DNA from: Amanita rubescens
Taxonomy: Eukaryota > Basidiomycota > Agaricomycetes > Agaricales > Amanitaceae
DNA length: 62,722 bases
Direction: 5' to 3'
NCBI GenBank assembly: GCA_015039365.1
Contig: WION01000303.1
Span: forward strand, 1 to 62,722
Made by a program: the position numbers and the translations under genes. The first letter of the stretch is position 1. Each line of letters begins with the position of its first letter. Positions 2,753 to 55,587 of this stretch are shown in pieces. A model generated the notes under the pieces. The model was not told the DNA's origin. It searched no databases and was given only the letters and a program-made list of their open reading frames with translations.

Positions 2753-3045
2753 CTATCTAGTTATACCAGACTCCAGCCAAAATCCTGATGTGATATCTTT
2801 ACTTCCAGGAAAAAATTATACATATATAGGTATGTAATCCACATTAATGTCTAGTACATCAGGAAGAAAATATTACAGATGCATGAACAACAAAGGGAAT
2901 GCATATGAGAATGCATATGAGAAGTGATCTACTATGTACAAATAAATATGATCTCAATGCAAAGGCAATGCAGCCAATATATCACTGACTGGATATCATA
3001 CTGTGTGTTTCACCCTGCCATGAATTGTTCATAACTAATGCATGA

Positions 3046-6000
3046 CTAGACGAAGCACATACCATCAATGTGAGACACCTGCCTATTGAGTAATGTGACA
3101 AAATCTTGATGACCAGAGTGCATAAAGTCAGGAGTAATGTCAGTCTTCAGCTTCTGAGCATAGCCTTTTTGCTTGTATTGATCCAAGGCCTCTGTGACTG
3201 ATGGCAGAAATGGTTTATTGATCCAAAAGGATAGCTTGGCAATGATAATAATTGCTCCAAGGTTTAAGCATAAATTCAGTACATGAAAAGGAGTGATTTA
3301 CAAACTAAGACCTGGCAACCAGTAGGCTTGTTGCAATGGCATCAGTTTTGTATTACCCAAAAAGAAAAAAGAAAAACACCTTGACTGCAAAGTTCCTTTG
3401 CCTGTTTCCAAACATCGAGAAAAATTCATGCTAGTTATGTAGTATGAGATAGAGAATACAGAATAATCACATGAGGTGGGAGTGGGTGAGCTGAAATGAA
3501 ATCTTACATTCTATGATGATAATAATGTAAAAGGATGACATGGAAAAGATAAGGCAATATGCTCACTTTCTGATATGTGTAAATAGGATGTAATGATATA
3601 TCAAACATTCATGAATTGAGGTATGCTGAGAATGCAGGTCAAAAAAATTGCAAAGGAACTCACAAGCTGTTGGTCATAGGAAAAAATGTGATGAGACTGC
3701 CTTTCACAAAATGTGCAATGTCACTCACAAGCTGTTGGTCATAGGAAAAGATGTGATGAGACTGCCTTTCACAAAATGTGCAATGTCACTCACTCGCTGT
3801 TGGTCATAGGAAAAGATGTGATGAGACTGCCTTTCACAAAATGTGCAATGTCACTCACTCGCTGTTGGTCATAGGAAAAGATGTGATGAGACTGCCTTTC
3901 ACAAAATGTGCAATGTCGCTCACGAGCTGTTGGTCATAGGAAAAGATGTGATGAGACTGCCTTTCACAAAATGTGCAATGTCACTCACTCCCTGTTGGTC
4001 ATAGGAAAAGATGTGATGAGACTACCTTTCACAAAATGTGCAATGTCGCTCACGAGCTGTTGGTCATAGGAAAAGATGTGATGAAACTGCCTTTCACAAA
4101 ATGTGCAATGTCACTCACGATCTGTTGGTCATAGGAAAAGATGTGATGAGACTGCCTTTCACAAAATGTGCAATGTCACTCACTTGCTGTTGGTCATAGG
4201 AAAAGATGTGATGAGACTGCCTTTCACAAAATGTGCAATGTCACTCACTTCCTGTTGGTCATAGGAAAAGATGTGATGAGACTGCCTTTCACAAAATGTG
4301 CAATGTCACTCACTCGCTGTTGGTCATAGGAAAAGATGTGATGAGACTGCCTTTCACAAAATGTGCAATGTCACTCACTCGCTGTTGGTCATAGGAAAAG
4401 ATGTGATGAGACTGCCTTTCACAAAATGTGCAATGTCACTCACTCGCTGTTGGTCATAGGAAAAGATGTGATGAGACTGCCTTTCACAAAATGTGCAATG
4501 TCACTCACTTGCTGTTGGTCATAGGAAAAGATGTGATGAGACTGCCTTTCACAAAATGTGCAATGTCACTCACTCCCTGTTGGTCATAGGAAAAGATGTG
4601 ATGAGACTGCCTTTCACAAAATGTGCAATGTCACTCACTCCCTGTTGGTCATAGGAAAAGATGTGATGAGACTGCCTTTCACAAAATGTGCAATGTTACT
4701 CACTCGCTGTTGGTCATAGGAAAAGATGTGATGAGACTGCCTTTCACAAAATGTGCAATGTCACTCACTGCCTGTTGGTCATAGGAAAAGATGTGATGAG
4801 ACTGCCTTTCACAAAATGTGCAATGTCACTCACTCCCTGTTGGTCATAGGAAAAGATGTGATGAGACTGCCTTTCGCAAAATGTGCAATGTCACTCACAT
4901 CCTGTTGGTCATAGGAAAAGATGTGATGAGACTGTCTTTCGCAAAATGTGCAATGTCACTCACGATCTGTTGGTCATAGGAAAAGATGTGATGAGACTGC
5001 CTTTCACAAAATGTGCAATGTCACTCACTCGCTGTTGGTCATAGGAAAAGATGTGATGAGGCTGCCTTTCACAAAATGTGCAATGTCACTCACTTGCTGT
5101 TGGTCATAGGAAAAGATGTGATGAGACTGCCTTTCACAAAATGTGCAATGTCACTCACGATCTGTTGGTCATAGGAAAAGATGTGATGAGACTGCCTTTC
5201 ACAAAATGTGCAATGTCACTCACGATCTGTTGGCCATAGGAAAAGATGTGATGAGACTGCCTTTCACAAAATGTGCAATGTCACTCACTCGCTGTTGGTC
5301 ATAGAAAAAGATGTGATGAGACTGCCTTTCACAAAATGTGCAATGTCACTCACTCGCTGTTGGTCATAGGAAAAGATGTGATGAGACTGCCTTTCACAAA
5401 ATGTGCAATGTCACTCACAAGCTGTTGGCCATAGGAAAAGATGTGATGAGACTGCCTTTCACAAAATGTGCAATGTCACTCACTCGCTGTTGGTCATAGG
5501 AAAAGATGTGATGAGACTGCCTTTCACAAAATGTGCAATGTCACTCACTGCCTGTTGGTCATAGGAAAAGATGTGATGAGACTGCCTTTCACAAAATGTG
5601 CAATGTCACTCACAAGCTGTTGGTCATAGGAAAAGATGTGATGAGACTGCCTTTCCCAAAATGTGCAATGTCACTCACTTCCTGTTGGTCATAGGAAAAG
5701 ATGTGATGAGACTGCCTTTCACAAAATGTGCAATGTCACTCACAAGCTGTTGGTCATAGGAAAAGATGTGATGAGACTGCCTTTCCCAAAATGTGCAATG
5801 TCACTCACTTCCTGTTGGTCATAGGAAAAGATGTGATGAGACTGCCTTTCACAAAATGTGCAATGTCACTCACGTCCTGTTGGTCATAGGAAAAGATGTG
5901 ATGAGACTGCCTTTCACAAAATGTGCAATGTCACTCACTCCCTGTTGGTCATAGGAAAAGATGTGATGAGACTGCCTTTCACAAAATGTGCAATGTCACT

Positions 6001-8438
6001 CACATACTGTTAGACATAGGCGAAAATTTGGTAAGGTCATCTTTTGAACCACTAAATCAGCATGACATGCTGCTAACCTTCTATGTTTATAGGAAAAGAT
6101 GTGATTTCACTGCTTTTCACAAAACTTGCAATATCACCCACAATCTGTAGAACAAAATAATGTGTCCAAATTGTCCTCTAGCCAAATGGCCAGCATCACT
6201 CACTTCCTTTTAGAATGAATTAGTATCATGAGGAGTTGAAAAAAAAGAAAACAATGCCACTGACTCTCTTTTGCTGTATTTCATATGATGAATTCACATG
6301 TCACAGAAGGATCACATACATCCTGTTTATTTCACAATAGCTTGTGAAGAGACTTTGAAAAGGAGAAATATTTACTGTCTGTTGTTTTGGGACATCATAT
6401 AATGTTTATAAGCAGACAGAAAGTAAATGTTACTTACTTCCTGTTATTAATCCAATGAAATTTGTTGAGACTCTCTTTCAGATAATAATATGTTACCAAC
6501 TTTCTGTTGCTCATTGAGTAGTATGTCTGATAAGCTGTGCAAACATCAATGTTGCTTACTTTCTTTAAGCAGGTCAGATGTAGTGTGAAGGAACATTGTA
6601 TTACTCACTCCCTGTCCATGAACGACTGGATTGACAAGTCTGCTTACAATGATAGATCAACTCACTTGCTATTGGCCATATGGTGCACCATGCCATCATT
6701 TACCAAAAATCAAAATTGAGTCATGTCACTCACTTCCTGTAGATTATGGGACAAGAGTGCTGATCACAAAAGGAAGCATTACTCACAAACTGTTGTCATG
6801 AGACAATATATCAGATCTATGCTATGTAGTCCAATGCCACTTACCCACTGAGATCAATATCATCAGATCCTGCTGCCAACTTGAATATGGTGACAGTGAC
6901 TAACCTGTGCTTCACTCAGTTGTTCATTGGCCATCTGAAGCATGACTAATTTTGGTTTCATGTGAAGGCATTGGAGTGCTACTTACCACCTGATGAACAT
7001 TTGCAAGTATTTATCATTCCATATGAAGGTCACCTACCTCCCTGTCCACCTATTTCCATTTAAATTTTCCTATGCTATGTGCAGTTTGACAAAAATGCAT
7101 ACCCAAAAATGTGGAAATTTTGAAAAAACTATGAAAATGACATCATTCCATTTCCGATCTTTATATTTCAGAACTTGTCTGAACAATGTCAATGTTAGTA
7201 AGTGACAAAGATGTGAATGTGACCCTCACTGAAGTGCAGATTTAACACAAAGGTCAAGATTATTCATCTGTGTTGAAACAAACAGCTCATGTATGCTGTC
7301 ATCATCTATTGCATCAGCAGTTTGCTGAGTTAATTCAGCACAATTCTTCTCTGGTAAATCCATGTCTATGAAACAACATTACTCCTGTTTTTTAGGAAGA
7401 AATCCTCATCATTCTCACCTTCCAATTTCACATATGCCTTGGGAGGATATTTGGCATCTGAAACTTTAGGAAGATAAACTTTCCTAAAAGTGATTTCAGC
7501 AATTTCCTTGGCTCTCTCCCACTTATCCTCATCCTTTGCATCAGTCAAGTTGACATATTCACTGGCTATTTGACCATCAAATTTAGTGAATATAACCACC
7601 AAAGGGACTGTAAAGGAAATATTTACTAGTCAGTACTAGTAGATTTGTGGCAAGTTGGCCAATGGAAAGGAGGTAACATAACCAATCTCTCCAAAACCAA
7701 CTTGAAGTTACAAGATGAGATATGAATTCATTAGGGCTTACCTCTGCCTGTCCCTTCATTGAAGAATTCAAGTTCTGCAGGTAGAATGGGACGAGGACTG
7801 TCCATGGGTATACAGTACCTAGAGGAAGCCAGGTCAGCCAGTGCTGTAAAGGGATAGAGCAAGATACCAAATTGCATGCAGCTGGTTTTTCAGCTCAGTT
7901 TCTGCAGACTTCTTTTCAATGAACTTCCAAGCAATCTCCAATTCCTCAGTTGAACCAGATTCAAAACCCTGAGAGTCATGGAAGATAAAGTTACTTCCAG
8001 GGTATGTAATTTGATGCTCAATATCATGCAGGCCTCTCTGATATTGTTGCATGTAAATGGGTACATCCATACATCATTATCTGACTCACCTCAATTGATG
8101 GCATCAAATGATTCACAGACTGTTCAAGCTGATTACCTGCAAGAAACTCAGCAGCCAAACTTGGAAGCACAAAACTCAGATTGACTTACCATCCTTGCCA
8201 TATATGATGGGCTTTGTCCCCTTGGCTACACCACAAACCTTCTCAAGGATGGTTGTCTTGCCTGCATTAGCCCTCCCAATGACAAGGATGCGAAAGTGTG
8301 GGCATAGATAGCGTTCTTTGATTATTTGAAGATGTGTCTCATCTTGATCTGCTATTGTCAAGGATTAGAGATGCTGATTCACATAAAATAATAAATTAGC
8401 CTACTCAAAGATCCAGGTGCACCAGTTGTGGCTGCCAT
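3046..8438 (-). CDS. P-loop GTPase with single-codon microexon array (left copy)
   Basis: Reverse-strand twin of the gene at 50228-55392. The ATG is at 8438. Seven early introns separate exons encoding a GTP-binding domain with P-loop GRANAGKTT, G3 motif HDSQG and G4 motif TKFDG, then a segment ending SKFPHFW. Next come an exon of 12 nt (7039-7050), one codon, a 30-nt exon (6905-6934), fourteen further single-codon exons and one 9-nt exon down to 6004. Then 36 single-codon exons of the 65-bp array (3664-5938), two more codons, a 22-nt exon and a last exon to the stop at 3046-3048. Every predicted exon joins in frame without a stop, giving about 443 residues. G-domain proteins of this kind form large families in Agaricomycetes; the role is unknown. 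G-domain call is firm, microexons are predicted. Confidence 0.75.
3664..6006 (-). repeat. 65-bp array with 36 hypervariable triplets (left)
   Basis: Thirty-six tandem units of about 65 bp. Read on the minus strand, each unit is a 62-nt intron-like segment from GTGAGTGAC to GACCAACAG, followed by three variable bases. The unit after TAT at 6004-6006 is the first. The triplets are CGA (10), CTT (5), GGA (5), ATC (4), CAA (3), GAA (3), CTC (2), GCA (2), GAT (1) and GAC (1). None is a stop codon and none contains AG or GT. Both CTC units in the 5' half carry a GTGAGC donor, a sign of unit duplication. The intron bodies are almost identical; nearly all variation sits in the triplet. Confidence 0.95.
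6078..7050 (-). other. Older, non-repetitive microexon zone (left)
   Basis: Same organisation as 51617-52663: introns of about 45-75 nt whose sequences no longer resemble one another, each ending AG, then three bases, then a GT donor. It includes one 12-nt, one 30-nt and one 9-nt exon. Compared with the right copy, three microexons differ, all Glu/Lys exchanges: AAG at 6078-6080 against GAG, GAA at 6438-6440 against AAA, and one codon inside the 30-nt exon (6905-6934). Confidence 0.7.
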
Positions 8439-29855: not shown

Positions 29856-31807
29856 TCAATGTACTCTACACACAACTTTTGATTTCAACGCATTACTATA
29901 AAAATCTGTTAGCTTCGAGCTACAAGTCGAAAGACGAAGACTTGCCGTTATGACCGTTGGCTTTTCCCTTCCCAAAAACTCTTTCAACTTGCTAATCTCG
30001 AGCGCAACTTCAATCAACCCTTGCAACCCTTGCGCAGCATCGCGGCGCAACTCAGAGGGAGGCGACCCAGGTGGTAAATACCTCTCAACGTACATTCTGA
30101 CCGTCGCACCTTGACTCCCGGTCCCGCTCAACCTAAACACGACGCGAGATCCATCCGTGAATGTAATCACTTGTCCCTGGTTCGATGAAACCGAATGATC
30201 AATCGGGTCTTTATACTCGAAATTGTGCAACCCGGCGACGGTGAAGCTGCCTTCTGTCGACTTGGCCTTATGAGTGGTGTTTGCCAAGGTGCCATTTTTT
30301 AGACCCTCGTTGAGGTGCGCGACAAGAGCGTTTGCCCCCTCCGATGAGACTTCTTCGTAATCGTAGCGAGAGAAAAAGTTGCGGCCGTAGATATCGTAGT
30401 GCGCGTATAACAAATCGTTGATGCCGATGAGCTTTTCGCGATTGGGGGATTGGACGTTGGCTGCCGCGAGTATGTTGAGCCACGCTAAGAATAGAAAGTT
30501 AGCTGGGAACGCAAAAAAAAAAAAAATTTCAGGACTGTACCTACGACGGCCCAGACTCCGTCTTTCTCTCGTATATGGTCGGATCCCGTACCAAAAGACT
30601 CTTCACCGCAAATAGAAAGTCTCCCAGCGTCCATCAAATTCCCAAAGAACTTCCACCCGGTGGGAACTTCAAAGTATTCATATCCCTTTTTCTGGGCCAC
30701 GAGGTCAATGGCTTTACTCGTTGGCATACTCCTCGCCAAGCCCTTGACGCCATTCTTCTTGAAATAGGGAATCACCTCGGCCCAATGCGCGATTATCGCA
30801 ACTGAATCAGAGGGTGTGACGAATGCCCCTTTGCCGTAAATCATGTTCCTATCGCCATCGCCATCGCTGGCGGCACCAAAGTTGACGTTGTTCTTTTCTA
30901 CAGCTTCGACGAGAGTGTGAGCGTAAGTCAAGTTGGGATCGGGATGGCCTCCGCCAAAGTCGGGTAGCGCGACGCAGTTTTGGATAGAGGATTCGGGAAG
31001 GCCAAGTTTGTCGATAAAAATGGCTCTCGCGTACGGACCGGTAACGCCATGCAACCCGTCAAACAACACTCGAAAGTCGGATTCGCGCGTGTCCAGGAAA
31101 AACTTGATAAGCGTAAAATCGAAAATGGACTCTAGGAGGAGGACGTAATCTTCAACAGAGTCGATGATGGATACTTGAGCCGGGCCAAACGTGAATTCGC
31201 CAATCTTTGAAAGATCGAGAGCGGGCGCGTTGATGACCTTGTATTTCTCAATCGTCTTGGTCTTTTCGTAAATCTTGTTCGTAACGCCTTCCGGAGCGGG
31301 ACCGCCGTTCGATACGTTATATTTGATGCCAAAATCGTTGTTCGGACCGCCGGGATTGTGAGAAGCAGTTAGGAGGATACCGCCATAGGCCTTGTATTTT
31401 CGGATCACATTGGAAGCGGCGGGAGTGGACAATATGCCATCCTTTCCAATAATAAATTTGCCCACGCCGTTTGCAGATCCGATTCTGAGGATGATCTGGA
31501 CAGCTTCAGGAGAGAAGAACCGGCCGTCGCCTCCGACGACGATAGTGGCGCCCTTTGCATCGATCGAGTCAAAGATCGCTTGAACGAAATTCTCGGTGTA
31601 GTTCTATGATGCACTGTGCGTGATAGAGCGACGATGGCGATAGGTGCCGCATACCTCTTGCTGAAATACTTTAACGCTAAACAGGGTTATTAGCGTTATC
31701 GGGTAAGGTTCAAAGCTTGAAACACTCTACCGTTTTCTGAGGCCTGAAGTTCCTGGCTTCTGGCCGTCGTAGGGCTTTGTGGGTACTTCAATTACGGTGG
31801 GGGACAT
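29856..31807 (-). CDS. Phosphoglucomutase
   Basis: ATG at 31807 ([25 protein letters not shown]), then short exons RVKVFQQE and NYTENFVQ onward, a large exon 30540-31600, and a last exon from 30485. The enzyme interconverts glucose 1-phosphate and glucose 6-phosphate in the cytosol, linking glycolysis with glycogen and cell-wall precursor synthesis. Seen: phosphoserine loop TASHNPGG, metal loop DGDGDRN, sugar-binding [11 protein letters not shown], and C-terminal phosphate-binding RLSGTGSQG. Introns are GT/AG and phases match. The conserved end PTVIT is followed by about 30 more codons before the stop at 29856. A GC-AG intron starting GCAAGTC right after PTVIT and ending GCTAACAG is an alternative. 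The 3' end was duplicated to 18235-18560. Confidence 0.95.
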
Positions 31808-50227: not shown

Positions 50228-53200
50228 ATGGCAGCCACAACTGGTGCACCTGGATCTTTGAGTAGGCTAATTTATTATTTTATGTGAATCAGCATCTCTA
50301 ATCCTTGACAATAGCAGATCAAGATGAGACACATCTTCAAATAATCAAAGAACGCTATCTATGCCCACACTTTCGCATCCTTGTCATTGGGAGGGCTAAT
50401 GCAGGCAAGACAACCATCCTTGAGAAGGTTTGTGGTGTAGCCAAGGGGACAAAGCCCATCATATATGGCAAGGATGGTAAGTCAATCTGAGTTTTGTGCT
50501 TCCAAGTTTGGCTGCTGAGTTTCTTGCAGGTAATCAGCTTGAACAGTCTGTAAATCATTTGATGCCATCAATTGAGGTGAGTCAGATAATGATGTATGGA
50601 TGTACCCATTTACATGCAACAATATCAGAGAGGCCTGCATGATATTGAGCATCAAATTACATACCCTGGAAGTAACTTTATCTTCCATGACTCTCAGGGT
50701 TTTGAATCTGGTTCAACTGAGGAATTGGAGATTGCTTGGAAGTTCATTGAAAAGAAGTCTGGAGAAACTGAGCTGAAAAACCAGCTGCATGCAATTTGGT
50801 ATCTTGCTCTATCCCTTTACAGTACTGGCTGACCTGGCTTCCTCTAGGTACTGTATACCCATGGACAGTCCTCGTCCCATTCTACCTACAGAACTTGAAT
50901 TCTTCAATGAAGGGACAGGCAGAGGTAAGTCCTAATGAATTCATATCTCATCTTGTAACTTCAAGTTGGTTTTGGAGAGATTGGTTATGTTACCTCCTTT
51001 CCATTGGCCAACTTGCCACAAATCTACTAGTACTGACTAGTAAATATTTCCTTTACAGTCCCTTTGGTGGTTATATTCACTAAATTTGATGGTCAAATAG
51101 CCAGTGAATATGTCAACTTGACTGATGCAAAGGATGAGGATAAGTGGGAGAGAGCCAGGGAAATTGCTGAAATCACTTTTCAGAAAGTTTATCTTCCTAA
51201 AGTTTCAAATGCCAAATATCCTCCCAAGGCATATGTGCAATTGGAAGGTGAGAATGATGAGGATTTCTTCCTGAAAAACAGGAGTAATGTTGTTTCATAG
51301 ACATGGATTTATTGGAGAAGAATTGTGCTGAATTAACTCAGCAAACTGCTGATGCAATAGATGATGACAGCATACATGAGCTGTTTGTTTCAACACAGAT
51401 GAATAATCTTGACCTTTGTGTTAAATCTGCACTTCGGTGAGGGTCACATTCACATCTTTGTCACTTACTAACATTGACATTGTTCAGACATGTTCTGAAG
51501 TATAAAGATTGGACATGGAATGATGTCATTATCATAGTTTTTTCAAAATTTCCACATTTTTGGGTATGCATTTTTGTCAAACTGCACATAGCATAGGAAA
51601 ATTTGAATGGAAATAGGTGGACAGGGAGGTAGGTAACCTTCATATGGAATGATAAATACTTGCAAATGTTCATCAGGTGGTAAGTAACACTCCAATGCCT
51701 TCACATGAAAACAAAATTAGTCATGCTTCAGATGGCCAATAAACAACTGAGTGAAGCACAGGTTAGTCACTGTCACCATATTCAAGTTGGCAGCAGGATC
51801 TGATGATATTGATCTCAGTGGGTAAGTGACATTGGACTACATAGCATAGATCTGATATATTGTCTCATGACAACAGTTTGTGAGTAATGCTTCCTTTTGT
51901 GATCAGCACTCTTGTCCCATAATCTACAGGAAGTGAGTGACATGACTCAATTTTGATTTTTGGTAAATGATCCCATGGTGCACCATATGGCCAATAGCAA
52001 GTGAGTTGATCTATCATTGTAAGCAGACTTGTCAATCAAGTCTCTCATGGACAGGGAGTGAGTAATACAATGTTCCTTCACACTACATCTGACCTGCTTA
52101 AAGAAAGTAAGCAACATTGATGTTTGCACAGCTTATCAGACATACTACTCAATGAGCAACAGAAAGTTGGTAACATATTATTATCTGAAAGAGAGTCTCA
52201 ACAAATTTCATTGGATTAATAACAGAAAGTAAGTAACATTTCCTTTCTGTCTGCTTATAAACATTATATGATGTCCCAAAACAACAGACAGTAAATATTT
52301 CTCCTTTTCAAAGTCTCTTCACAAGCTATTGTGAAATAAACAGGATGTATGTGATCCTTCTGTGACATGTGAATTCATCATATGAAATACAGCAAAAGAG
52401 AGTCAGTGGCATTGTTTTCTTTTTTTTCAACTCCTCATGATACTAATTCCATTCTAAAAGGAAGTGAGTGATGCTGGCCATTTGGCTAGAGGACAATTTG
52501 GACACATTATTTTGTTCTACAGATTGTGGGTGATATTGCAAGTTTTGTGAAAAGCAGTGAAATCACATCTTTTCCTATAAACATAGGAGGTTAGCAGCAT
52601 GTCATGCTGATTTAGTGGTTCAAAAGATGACCTTACCAAATTTTTGCCTATGTCTAACAGTATGTGAGTGACATTGCACATTTTGTGAAAGGCAGTCTCA
52701 TCACATCTTTTCCTATGACCAACAGCAAGTGAGTGACATTGCACATTTTGTGAAAGGCAGTCTCATCACATCTTTTCCTATGTGGCCAACAGGAAGTGAG
52801 TGACATTGCACATTTTGTGAAAGGCCATCACATCTTTTCCTATGACCAACAGTTTGTGAGTGACATTGCACATTTTGTGAAAGGCAGTCTCATCACATCT
52901 TTTCCTATGACCAACAGGGAGTGAGTGACATTGCACATTTTGTGAAAGGCAGTCTCATCACATCTTTTCCTATGACCAACAGGGAGTGAGTGACATTGCA
53001 CATTTGTGAAAGGCAGTCTCATCACATCTTTTCCTATGACCAACAGGGAGTGAGTGACATTGCACATTTTGTGAAAGGCAGTCTCATCACATCTTTTCCT
53101 ATGACCAACAGGGAGTGAGTGACATTGCACATTTTGTGAAAGGCAGTCTCATCACATCTTTTCCTATGACCAACAGTTTGTGAGTGACATTGCACATTTT

Positions 53201-55392
53201 GTGAAAGGCAGTCTCATCACATCTTTTCCTATGACCAACAGGGAGTGAGTGACATTGCACATTTTGTGAAAGGCAGTCTCATCACATCTTTTCCTATGAC
53301 CAACAGGGAGTGAGTGACATTGCACATTTTGTGAAAGGCAGTCTCATCACATCTTTTCCTATGACCAACAGGGAGTGAGTGACATTGCACATTTTGTGAA
53401 AGGCAGTCTCATCACATCTTTTCCTATGACCAACAGGGAGTGAGTGACATTGCACATTTTGTATTTTGTGAAAGGCAGTCTCATCACATCTTTTCCTATG
53501 ACCAACAGCTCGTGAGTGACATTGCACATTTTGTGAAAGGCAGTCTCATCACATCTTTTCCTATGACCAACAGGAAGTGAGTGACATTGCACATTTTGTG
53601 AAAGGCAGTCTCATCACATCTTTTCCTATGACCAACAGCAAGTGAGTGACATTGCACATTTTGTGAAAGGCAGTCTCATCACATCTTTTCCTATGACCAA
53701 CAGTTTGTGAGTGACATTGCACATTTTGTGAAAGGCAGTCTCATCACATCTTTTCCTATGACCAACAGATTGTGAGTGACATTGCACATTTTGTGTAAGA
53801 CAGTCTCATCACATCTTTTCCAGCGAGTGAGTGACATTGCACATTTTGTGAAAGGCAGTCTCATCACATCTTTTCCTATGACCAACAGCTTGTGAGTGAC
53901 ATTGCACATTTTGTGTAAGACAGTCTCATCACATCTTTTCCTATGACCAACAGGAAGTGAGTGACATTGCACATTTTGTGAAAGGCAGTCTCATCACATC
54001 TTTTCCTATGACCAACAGCAAGTGAGTGACATTGCACATTTTGTGAAAGACAGTCTCATCACATCTTTTCCTATGACCAACAGGAAGTGAGTGACATTGC
54101 ACATTTTGTGAAAGGCAGTCTCATCACATCTTTTCCTATGACCAACAGTTTGTGAGTGACATTGCACATTTTGTGAAAGGCAGTCTCATCACATCTTTTC
54201 CTATGACCAACAGGGAGTGAGTGACATTGCACATTTTGTGAAAGGCAGTCTCATCACATCTTTTCCTATGACCAACAGTTTGTGAGTGACATTGCACATT
54301 TTGTGTAAGACAGTCTCATCACATCTTTTCCAGCGAGTGAGTGACATTGCACATTTTGTGAAAGGCAGTCTCATCACATCTTTTCCAGCGAGTGAGTGAC
54401 ATTGCACATTTTGTGTAAGACAGTCTCATCACATCTTTTCCTATGACCAACAGGAAGTGAGTGACATTGCACATTTTGTGAAAGGCAGTCTCATCACATC
54501 TTTTCCTATGACCAACAGCAAGTGAGTGACATTGCACATTTTGTGTAAGACAGTCTCATCACATCTTTTCCTATGACCAACAGTTTGTGAGTGACATTGC
54601 ACATTTTGTGAAAGGCAGTCTCATCACATCTTTTCCTATGACCAACAGTTTGTGAGTGACATTGCACATTTTGTGAAAGGCAGTCTCATCACATCTTTTC
54701 CTATGACCAACAGGGAGTGAGTGACATTGCACATTTTGTGAAAGGCAGTCTCATCACATTTTTTCCAACAGCTTGTGAGTTCCTTTGCAATTTTTTTGAC
54801 CTGCATTCTCAGCATACCTCAATTCATGAATGTTTGATATATCATTACATCCTATTTATACATATCAGAAAGTGAGCATATTGCCTGATCTTTTCCATGT
54901 CATCCTTTTACATTATTATCATCATAGAATGTAAGATTTCATTTCAGCTCACCCACTCCCACCTCATGTGATTATTCTGTATTCTCTATCTCATACTACA
55001 TAACTAGCATGAATTTTTCTCAATGTTTGGAAACAGGCAAAGGAACTTTGCAGTCAAGGTGTTTTTCTTTTTTCTTTTTGGGTAGTACAAAACTGATGCC
55101 ATTGCAACAAGCCTACTGATTGCCAGGTCTTAGTTTGTAAATCACTCCTTTTCATGTACTGAATTTATGCTTAAACCTTGGAGCAATTATTATCATTGCC
55201 AAGCTATCCTTTTGGATCAATAAACCATTTCTGCCATCAGTCACAGAGGCCTTGGATCAATACAAGCAAAAAGGCTATGCTCAGAAGCTGAAGACTGACA
55301 TTACTCCTGACTTTATGCACTCTGGTCATCAAGATTTTGTCACATTACTCAATAGGCAGGTGTCTCACATTGATGGTATGTGCTTCGTCTAG
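50228..55392 (+). CDS. P-loop GTPase with single-codon microexon array (right copy)
   Basis: First eight exons: 50228-50261, 50315-50476, 50530-50576, 50629-50798, 50848-50924, 51059-51247, 51301-51436, 51488-51563; together exactly 297 codons. They encode a GTPase domain with P-loop GRANAGKTT, HDSQGFE (G3), FTKFDG (G4) and the family end NNLDLCVKSAL to SKFPHFW. Then come exons of 12 nt, 3 nt and 30 nt, and a series of 3-nt exons plus one of 9 nt to TAT at 52661. Thirty-three array codons follow, then AAA (54869), AAT (54928), a 22-nt exon (55037-55058) and a last exon 55184-55392 with LSFWINKPFLPSVTEAL. The last two exons total 231 nt, so the frame closes perfectly. Total 63 exons, about 440 residues. 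Role unknown. Confidence 0.78.
51617..52663 (+). other. Older, non-repetitive microexon zone (right)
   Basis: Eighteen predicted exons between dissimilar introns of about 45-75 nt: VDRE (12 nt, 51617), GTG (51677), a 30-nt exon (51732), TGG (51819), TTT (51877), GAA (51930), CAA (51998), GGA (52055), AAA (52104), AAA (52163), AAA (52226), ACA (52288), GAT (52344), a 9-nt exon (52393), GAA (52461), ATT (52523), GAG (52587), TAT (52661). Each is preceded by AG with an upstream pyrimidine or branch-like stretch and followed by GT, mostly GTGAGT or GTAAGT. Every size is a multiple of three and no stop arises. Some introns still resemble the 65-bp unit (for example from 52526), so these look like aged array units. 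Confidence 0.72.
52661..54774 (+). repeat. 65-bp array with 33 hypervariable triplets (right)
   Basis: After TAT (52661-52663), thirty-three units each consist of a near-constant intron-like body (GTGAGTGACATT to GACCAACAG) and a triplet. Triplets: GGA (10), TTT (7), GAA (5), CAA (4), CGA (3), CTT (2), CTC (1), ATT (1). Several bodies carry indels: minus 5 near 52826, plus 2 near 52783, minus 1 near 53005, plus 7 near 53460, minus 10 before each CGA unit (53824, 54334, 54389), minus 7 before the last CTT. None is a multiple of three, and none touches a triplet or destroys the AG and GT. Confidence 0.95.
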
Positions 55393-55587
55393 TCATGCAT
55401 TAGTTATGAACAATTTATGGCAGGGTGAAACACACAGTATGATATCCAGTCAGTGATATATTGGCTGCATTGCCTTTGCATTGAGATCATATTTATTTGT
55501 ACATAGATCACTTCTCATATGTATTCCCTTTGTTGTTCATGCATCTGTAATATTTTCTTCCTGATGTACTAGACATTAATGTGGATT

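Follow-up and report, generated by a model that had tools for sequence, protein, structure and literature searches.

Predicted chains of single-codon exons in a GTPase gene family of Amanita rubescens

Genes with very short exons have been described in several groups of organisms. The micro-exon genes (MEGs) of Schistosoma mansoni have 10–20 exons of 6–81 bp (3–81 bp in the abstract), mostly of 15 bp, with introns of 0.1–5 kb (PMC10526429), and in the bicycle genes of aphids the internal exons are nearly all in phase 2, with a megacycle gene containing more than 100 microexons (PMC9168663). Fungal introner-like elements are near-identical introns that occur across one genome in unrelated genes (PMC4457414). 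Exons of 1 nt are spliced in plants (PMC8831610), a run of 3-, 18- and 22-bp exons is present in RPS24 (PMC12686416), and lipS of Dactylellina has two 3-nt exons (PMC5639578); such plant, RPS24 and lipS microexons are equally tiny and spliced, but isolated or few, and they form no protein-segment chain. Here, we analyse contig WION01000303.1 of the basidiomycete Amanita rubescens (assembly GCA_015039365.1), the whole of whose 62,722 nucleotides is referred to as the window, and describe in it a plus-strand GTPase gene whose tail is very probably spliced, in order and downstream of the GTPase domain, from 51 predicted one-codon exons with introns of 46–94 nt.

MEGs resemble this gene in having many short exons – mostly multiples of three, poorly annotatable and tied to variable proteins – and differ in that the Amanita chain has tens of exactly-3-nt exons in tandem units. 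MEGs are also marked by alternatively spliced central exons. Neither their usual exon size nor their long introns are found here: 890 of 971 internal exons are exactly 3 nt in a splice parse of 17 loci described below, and the chain introns stay within 46–94 nt. Bicycle and megacycle genes likewise encode divergent proteins and have many unusually small internal exons, as the 51 predicted 3-nt exons are, but the Amanita chain is in phase 0 rather than phase 2, has one codon per exon and yields a GTPase. Near-identical introns at many loci, the mark of introner-like elements, do occur (1188 genomic matches to the intron flanks, and introns at locus L025 near the window consensus), but at the loci examined, which were chosen by the array pattern, the Amanita copies lie head to tail, separated by single codons, within members of a single gene family. 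MEGs and bicycle genes are the two nearest kinds, but each has a defining feature that is absent from the Amanita layout, in which growth and variation proceed by single codons. We know of no described gene made of consecutive one-codon exons, and a literature search of titles and abstract openings, with most subscription journals outside it, returned no single-codon exon chain.

Predicted single-codon exons downstream of a G domain

The plus-strand gene begins with a G domain of eight exons (50228–51563; 891 nt, 297 codons, phase 0 at FPHFW), recovered just as an initial annotation of the window had drawn it. That annotation also pointed out about 50 repeats of AG, three bases and GT, and these are modelled as 51 exons of exactly 3 nt between 51677 and 54930, all in phase 0, with GT-AG introns throughout; as it had further noted, no join makes a stop. 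The predicted product of 452 aa comprises the G domain, the chain and conserved C-terminal exons, and from the end of the G domain its spliced peptide would read FPHFW-VDRE-V-MANKQLSEAQ-WFEQGKKKTDREIEY...LKN-HEFFSMFG.

The first exon after the G domain is one of 12 nt encoding VDRE (51617–51628), for which the transcript-like proteins P0003 and P0031, considered below, have VDRA and VGRD. It is followed by the first single-codon exon, GTG (V; 51677–51679), where P0003 has V and P0031 has E, and by a 30-nt exon, MANKQLSEAQ (51732–51761), whose peptide is the same in P0031. Fifteen head codons, W F E Q G K K K T D R E I E Y, stand one per exon in 51819–52663, and the variable middle consists of 33 single-codon exons (52726–54774). 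A 65-bp tandem array of 33.1 copies, the unit being a 62-nt intron and one codon, occupies 52643–54766, and the chain ends with AAA (K; 54869–54871) and AAT (N; 54928–54930). The longer exons of 12 and 30 nt had been proposed before; a third, of 9 nt, is better read as a single AGA codon at 52399, because P0003 and P0031 have SDREI and TDKQI there.

Beyond the chain, the C-terminal exons were placed by homology guidance and not by a frame-aware splice parse. A 51-nt exon, HEFFSMFGNRQRNFAVK (55008–55058; PELFSVFG or DELFSMFG in transcript-like relatives), is missing from the initial annotation and precedes what that annotation took as the last two exons, totalling 231 nt. Those two persist, as 55112–55136 (25 nt, PTDCQVLV; PTDCQVLV in P0122 and PTACQVLA in P0121) and 55184–55389 (206 nt), with the second now divided: the C-terminal exon SIIIIAKLSFWINKPF...SHID ends at 55375, and the last two coding bases, which complete a G, lie with the stop in 55424–55428. 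The extra intron (55376–55423) was placed because several transcript-like relatives end in HIDG. An in-frame stop is therefore retained, as TGA at 55426–55428, and the earlier estimate of about 440 residues gives way to 452.

Sites with the form of single-codon exons are far more frequent than expected from 1000 dinucleotide shuffles. The strict pattern YAG.NNN.GTRNG occurs 9 times in 51564–52640 (shuffle mean 0.23, maximum 3; about 40-fold enriched), 33 times in 52641–54766 (mean 0.48, maximum 4; about 68-fold) and 3 times in 54767–55183 (mean 0.02, maximum 1; about 150-fold). The loose pattern AG-NNN-GT, with 24, 87 and 4 occurrences in the same three parts, is also enriched, and shuffles, with a maximum of 5, reach the observed count only in the last.

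The splice parse mentioned above scores intron ends and intron length alone, ignoring frame and codon content, and was applied to the 17 loci with both anchors, L028 being omitted as a near-identical duplicate of L024. None of the 890 three-nt exons is a stop, where base composition at each position of the codon would predict 56.2, and intron lengths are spread 567/220/201 across the three remainders. Exons of 3 nt make up about 1% in the controls (4 of 290 on the antisense strand; 3 of 425, 4 of 418 and 5 of 417 in three shuffles). The units are related through duplication, and these counts are accordingly not independent events. Thirteen of the 17 content-free chains start with F(E/D)xGK, which may be preceded by V or E and W, and two more fall short of it by one letter; L011 and C1b differ.

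The first 16 or so introns had been described as unrelated in sequence. They are diverged instead, paralogous head introns lying at an edit distance of 0.20 compared with 0.55 when shuffled; the 13 loci compared were picked by the motif F[ED]xGK, which partly builds in their low codon divergence.

The family layout across the genome

The flank pattern CAACAG-NNN-GTGAGTGACATTG has 1188 exact matches in the genome and its reversed control none. A single stop (TGA) is found among the codons at the NNN sites, and two others of the form TRR are TGG; codons ending in C or G number only 47 of the 1188, so that G ahead of the donor is rare. With the flanks CCAACAG and GTGAGTGACATTG there are also 15 exons of 4–30 nt (six of 4 nt, nine of 6 nt) and 17 of 0–2 nt, of which 14 are on contig C749 and three on C13. 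A search of viral contigs with the flank pattern gave no match, and a 22-base flank match on bacterial contig L047 was taken as chance, as it is a single unit with no array within 901 bases.

All 22 oriented loci examined, selected by the array pattern, belong to one GTPase family. The G domain lies upstream of the array in 17 of them, and the family C-terminal exon lies beyond it in 21, the exception, on C26, having gained the exon on extension. The C-terminal exons HELFSMFGDKQRNFAVK - PTDCQVLVS - IIIIAKLSFWINKP... are readable by rule past the array in 18 of 21 loci; the set is incomplete at L014, L017 and L009-, and at L015 the frame shifts after it. A search with P0122 placed the family C-terminal exon at 150 or more genomic sites, near-identical copies included, which is a lower bound since 150 of 225 candidates were scored. 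A scan of 20 chains found AAA ATT (K I) near the end of 13.

P-loop GTPases carry the signature GxxxxGKT, DxxG and TKxD, and the translated G domain of the window gene has GRANAGKT, DSQG and TKFD. Pfam and NCBIfam searches gave GTPase matches at sub-threshold level only (MMR_HSR1 on P0001 has E 0.00046, under its cut-off), and a PDB sequence search returned weak rows, chiefly Arf, also Der and septin. Immunity-related GTPases (IRGs) have a G domain packed with a helical domain; in a fold comparison, the top row of the IRG type is about 1.7 Z ahead of generic GTPases, but its rmsd is high; by this loose fold match IRGs (e.g. Irga6, and GM4951) are counted among the nearest systems.

P0002, an annotated protein of A. 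rubescens, spans 92% of the G domain at 95% identity, the highest among listed proteins, and its model ends ahead of the array. The same is common in the family: the 120 listed homologs include 98 gene models, and 83 of these terminate at exon 7 or FPHFW, any extra residues numbering 15 or fewer. These early ends, together with the clean tandem structure of the array core, are what one would expect if the 65-bp repeat were a non-coding satellite that mimics splice sites and the gene were over near FPHFW. We find that scarcely credible: the C-terminal exons continue by rule past most arrays, the older C1b array still has 3-nt exons although its introns have diverged, and an early stop is also what a gene finder unable to place 3-nt exons would yield.

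Several further observations were made at individual loci. L012/L013 on C3 has the C-terminal exon and no G-domain match within 20 kb around a long array. L019/L048 (C26:108900-123999, minus strand) is an old array with about 70 single codons by loose scan and the family C-terminal exon; it gives the impression of transposon-like sequence at the expected place of the G domain, and by eye it seems to contain a duplication of some 1.9 kb in which the codons are altered. C1b (L009/L049) has, also by eye, a TGG codon before gcaagt, a possible GC-AG intron inside the chain.

Comparison with intron-free relatives

Proteins from short contigs labelled jgi have an uninterrupted G domain, though eight exons encode it in the genome, and these contigs are most likely RNA-derived. 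P0003 reads ...FPHLWVDRAVTNEQLSETKWFEKGKKESDREIEYDGG... and P0031 reads ...FPHFWVGRDEMANKQLSEAQWFEHGKKDTDKQIVYDGE..., and in P0132 head, variable middle and C-terminus follow in one continuous frame. P0031 and P0003 were rejected as transcripts of this genome, their top rows being 81% and 77% identical with none listed near 100%, and they seem to come from relatives. A tail search with the window gene's own sequence found P0121 and P0031 only; a profile of eight predicted tails found 74 proteins.

The closest correspondence is that of P0122, whose source organism is likely a relative, with contig C207, fetched because the best matches to the P0122 C-terminal exon are C207 and C278, at 90% identity. 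The content-free parse of C207 gives a 46-residue chain, QVELESRLWLFRGEVVTEKKQQSLSEMMEVSRKLQQVGEQQFQQFC, for which P0122 has QVELESRLEWLFRGEVVTEKQQSLSDMMEVSQKLQQVGEQQFQQFC: 43 of 45 aligned residues are identical, with two one-residue indels. The score of 197 compares with a maximum of 66 in 5000 shuffles, none of which was as good, and with 18–34 for the 17 other chains. The C207 stretch includes one 6-nt exon (K L), both residues of which are present in P0122, and spans about 3.3 kb of genome against 2135 nt for the P0122 contig. On sequence comparison, we regard this match as decisive for a codon-by-codon chain. Smaller support comes from L027, whose predicted end GGTHSMISRQ is the end of P0123. 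P0003, P0031 and P0051 each beat all 1000 shuffles against their best chains.

The same pair bears on whether the codons reach the mRNA at all. Under recursive splicing, or removal of one long intron, the AG-NNN-GT sites would be stepping stones and their codons absent from the message. Stepping stones do seem to exist, since a zero-nt junction – CAG or TAG followed directly by a GT donor – lies near the chain end at 14 of 19 loci and resembles the AG/GT site without a residue that is typical of recursive splicing. Elsewhere in the chain, 3 nt separate AG from GT. The absence of stops from 890 three-nt exons and the conservation of chain-start codons count against this alternative, and for C207 it is contradicted by the presence of the codons in P0122; we consider it highly improbable. 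The zero-nt junction was not seen in the two window genes, L017, L025 or L026. The one in C207 falls between ATT and TGT codons, and P0122 adds nothing there (I, then C).

One residue per single-codon exon, as first proposed from the letters alone, is therefore supported by exon-length and stop statistics, by chain-start codons shared in 15 of 17 chains and by the C207-P0122 match. The outcomes named at that time as speaking against it – transcripts that stop near 51570, retain the array or remove it as one 3.6-kb intron – do not fit the C207-P0122 match, which concerns a sister locus only.

Several points weigh against a codon-by-codon chain or limit its reach. Training of the parse's intron-end profile used 3-nt-spaced sites at the same loci, although only intron positions were scored, and the selection of loci by array pattern means that they do not measure the frequency of the layout. 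The RNA origin of the jgi contigs, whose source is unstated, is judged from their lack of introns. When 16 picked transcript-like proteins were set against 18 chains, four beat all 1000 shuffles, five were matched by 1–3 shuffles and seven by 9–254; 2000 shuffles reached the score of C1b against P0045 seven times and against P0047 five times, and that of L009+ against P0003 twice. Many such misses are expected because the region is variable and most loci are unsampled, which is not proof. Frame-breaking exons occur at L017 on C13 (2 and 4 nt), on C749 (0, 1, 2 and 4 nt) and singly, of 4 nt, on each of C254 and C599. The frame-broken arrays lie at C749:2068-4151 and C13:582104-583229 (L017), and these and the sites on C254 and C599 are either decayed copies or assembly errors. 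Finally, agreement at 43 of 45 residues means that P0122 and C207 show no fast codon change as a pair.

Codon and intron variation, and a second gene in the window

Among arrays with at least 8 core units, to which the measurement was confined, per-site diversity in four young arrays is far higher in codons than in introns: 0.626 vs 0.0081 (78-fold) in the window plus-strand gene, 0.620 vs 0.0131 (47-fold) in a minus-strand gene of the window described last, 0.332 vs 0.0039 (85-fold) in L017 and 0.648 vs 0.0164 (40-fold) in L025. The ratio is 3.2 to 9.5 in eight older arrays, two of which are near-identical. In L025, which lies on another contig, most middle introns are 0–2 edits off the window consensus, so introns are alike between loci and codons are not. 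Divergence between the two window genes is 2.4% in introns against 37% in aligned codon bases, nearly all of the latter in the middle. The chain has the look of a region that is hypervariable codon by codon.

Near-identical copies were compared by unit-level alignment, which overlooks exons other than 3 nt: with the minus-strand window gene aligned to L045, one intron comes out at 66 edits, at the place of a 4-nt exon on C254. Between that gene and L046, intron edits number 4 of 3190, yet two adjoining codons are swapped (CGA CGA to ATC GGA), and from L045 the gene differs in a block of four versus three codons. For L024 and L028, the differences are a single codon base and, in the introns, 6 edits of 4399. 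In L025, codon identity reaches 0.42 at lag 18, the median across lags being 0.15, a sign of multi-unit blocks.

Two alternatives address how codons and introns came to differ so strongly. An introner-like invasion, in which a mobile intron entered every codon boundary and shattered an ordinary exon, would make the codons old and the introns new, and it accommodates middle introns that are near-identical within and between loci beside differing codons. Random insertion would not give 3-nt spacing, however, single codons are already present in the older, diverged array, and the multi-unit blocks with matching codons in L025 (lag 18) point to tandem duplication; we regard such an invasion as unlikely. 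The excess of codon over intron diversity in young arrays could also reflect targeted hypermutation of codon sites. This is possible but quite improbable, and less likely than concerted evolution and selection with unit exchange: the chains of P0122 and C207 still agree at 43 of 45 residues, having changed no faster than the 90% identical C-terminal exon, and the near-identical copies show adjoining whole-codon swaps, as unit exchange predicts. We read the pattern as concerted evolution of introns combined with selection on codons and whole-unit exchange.

A mechanism built on codon-by-codon splicing can be proposed, in which ordered splicing would let every one-codon exon add one amino acid after the GTPase domain. 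Any skipping of single-codon exons, as the initial annotation suggested, might enlarge the set of isoforms. Chains of the family follow a plan in which a variable middle stands between a head that is conserved, in this gene W F E Q G K K x T D R E I x Y, and an end that is often K I. The middle would lengthen or shorten by tandem duplication or loss of the 65-bp unit, each event changing one residue and keeping the frame because 62 of 65 bases are intron, and recombination between units would keep the introns alike while selection kept the codons different. From the pattern of variation and the loose fold match, our guess is that the chain provides a large fungal GTPase family with a variable surface for recognition. 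A broader proposal is tentative, with the chances somewhat against it: in a genome-wide system, more than 100 fungal GTPase genes would have variable tails of one-residue exon cassettes, the near-identical introns serving as recombination handles for gain, loss and exchange of residues between genes with the frame kept intact, and together they would form an NLR- or IRG-like recognition repertoire.

If codon-by-codon splicing holds, the spliceosome copes with tens of consecutive one-codon exons, beyond usual notions of a minimum exon and beyond gene finders, and introns gain a plausible job, in that a 65-bp tandem repeat becomes a frame-safe one-residue repeat. Questions that would become testable are how small an exon in a chain may be, in what order introns are removed, how uniform introns coexist with diverse codons, and whether annotation has hidden a hypervariable protein family in mushrooms.

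A second gene, similarly built, lies in the window at 3010–8438 on the minus strand, with its ATG at 8438 and its stop at 3012–3010; its single-codon array (3508–6989) has 50 codons by strict scan. Near-identical arrays to that of this gene are present at C254 and C769 (L045 and L046), which suggests haplotype or recent copies. By eye, the window also contains a retroelement gag-like open reading frame (ORF) at 47–853 on the plus strand and a phosphoglucomutase-like ORF at 30485–31465 on the minus strand.

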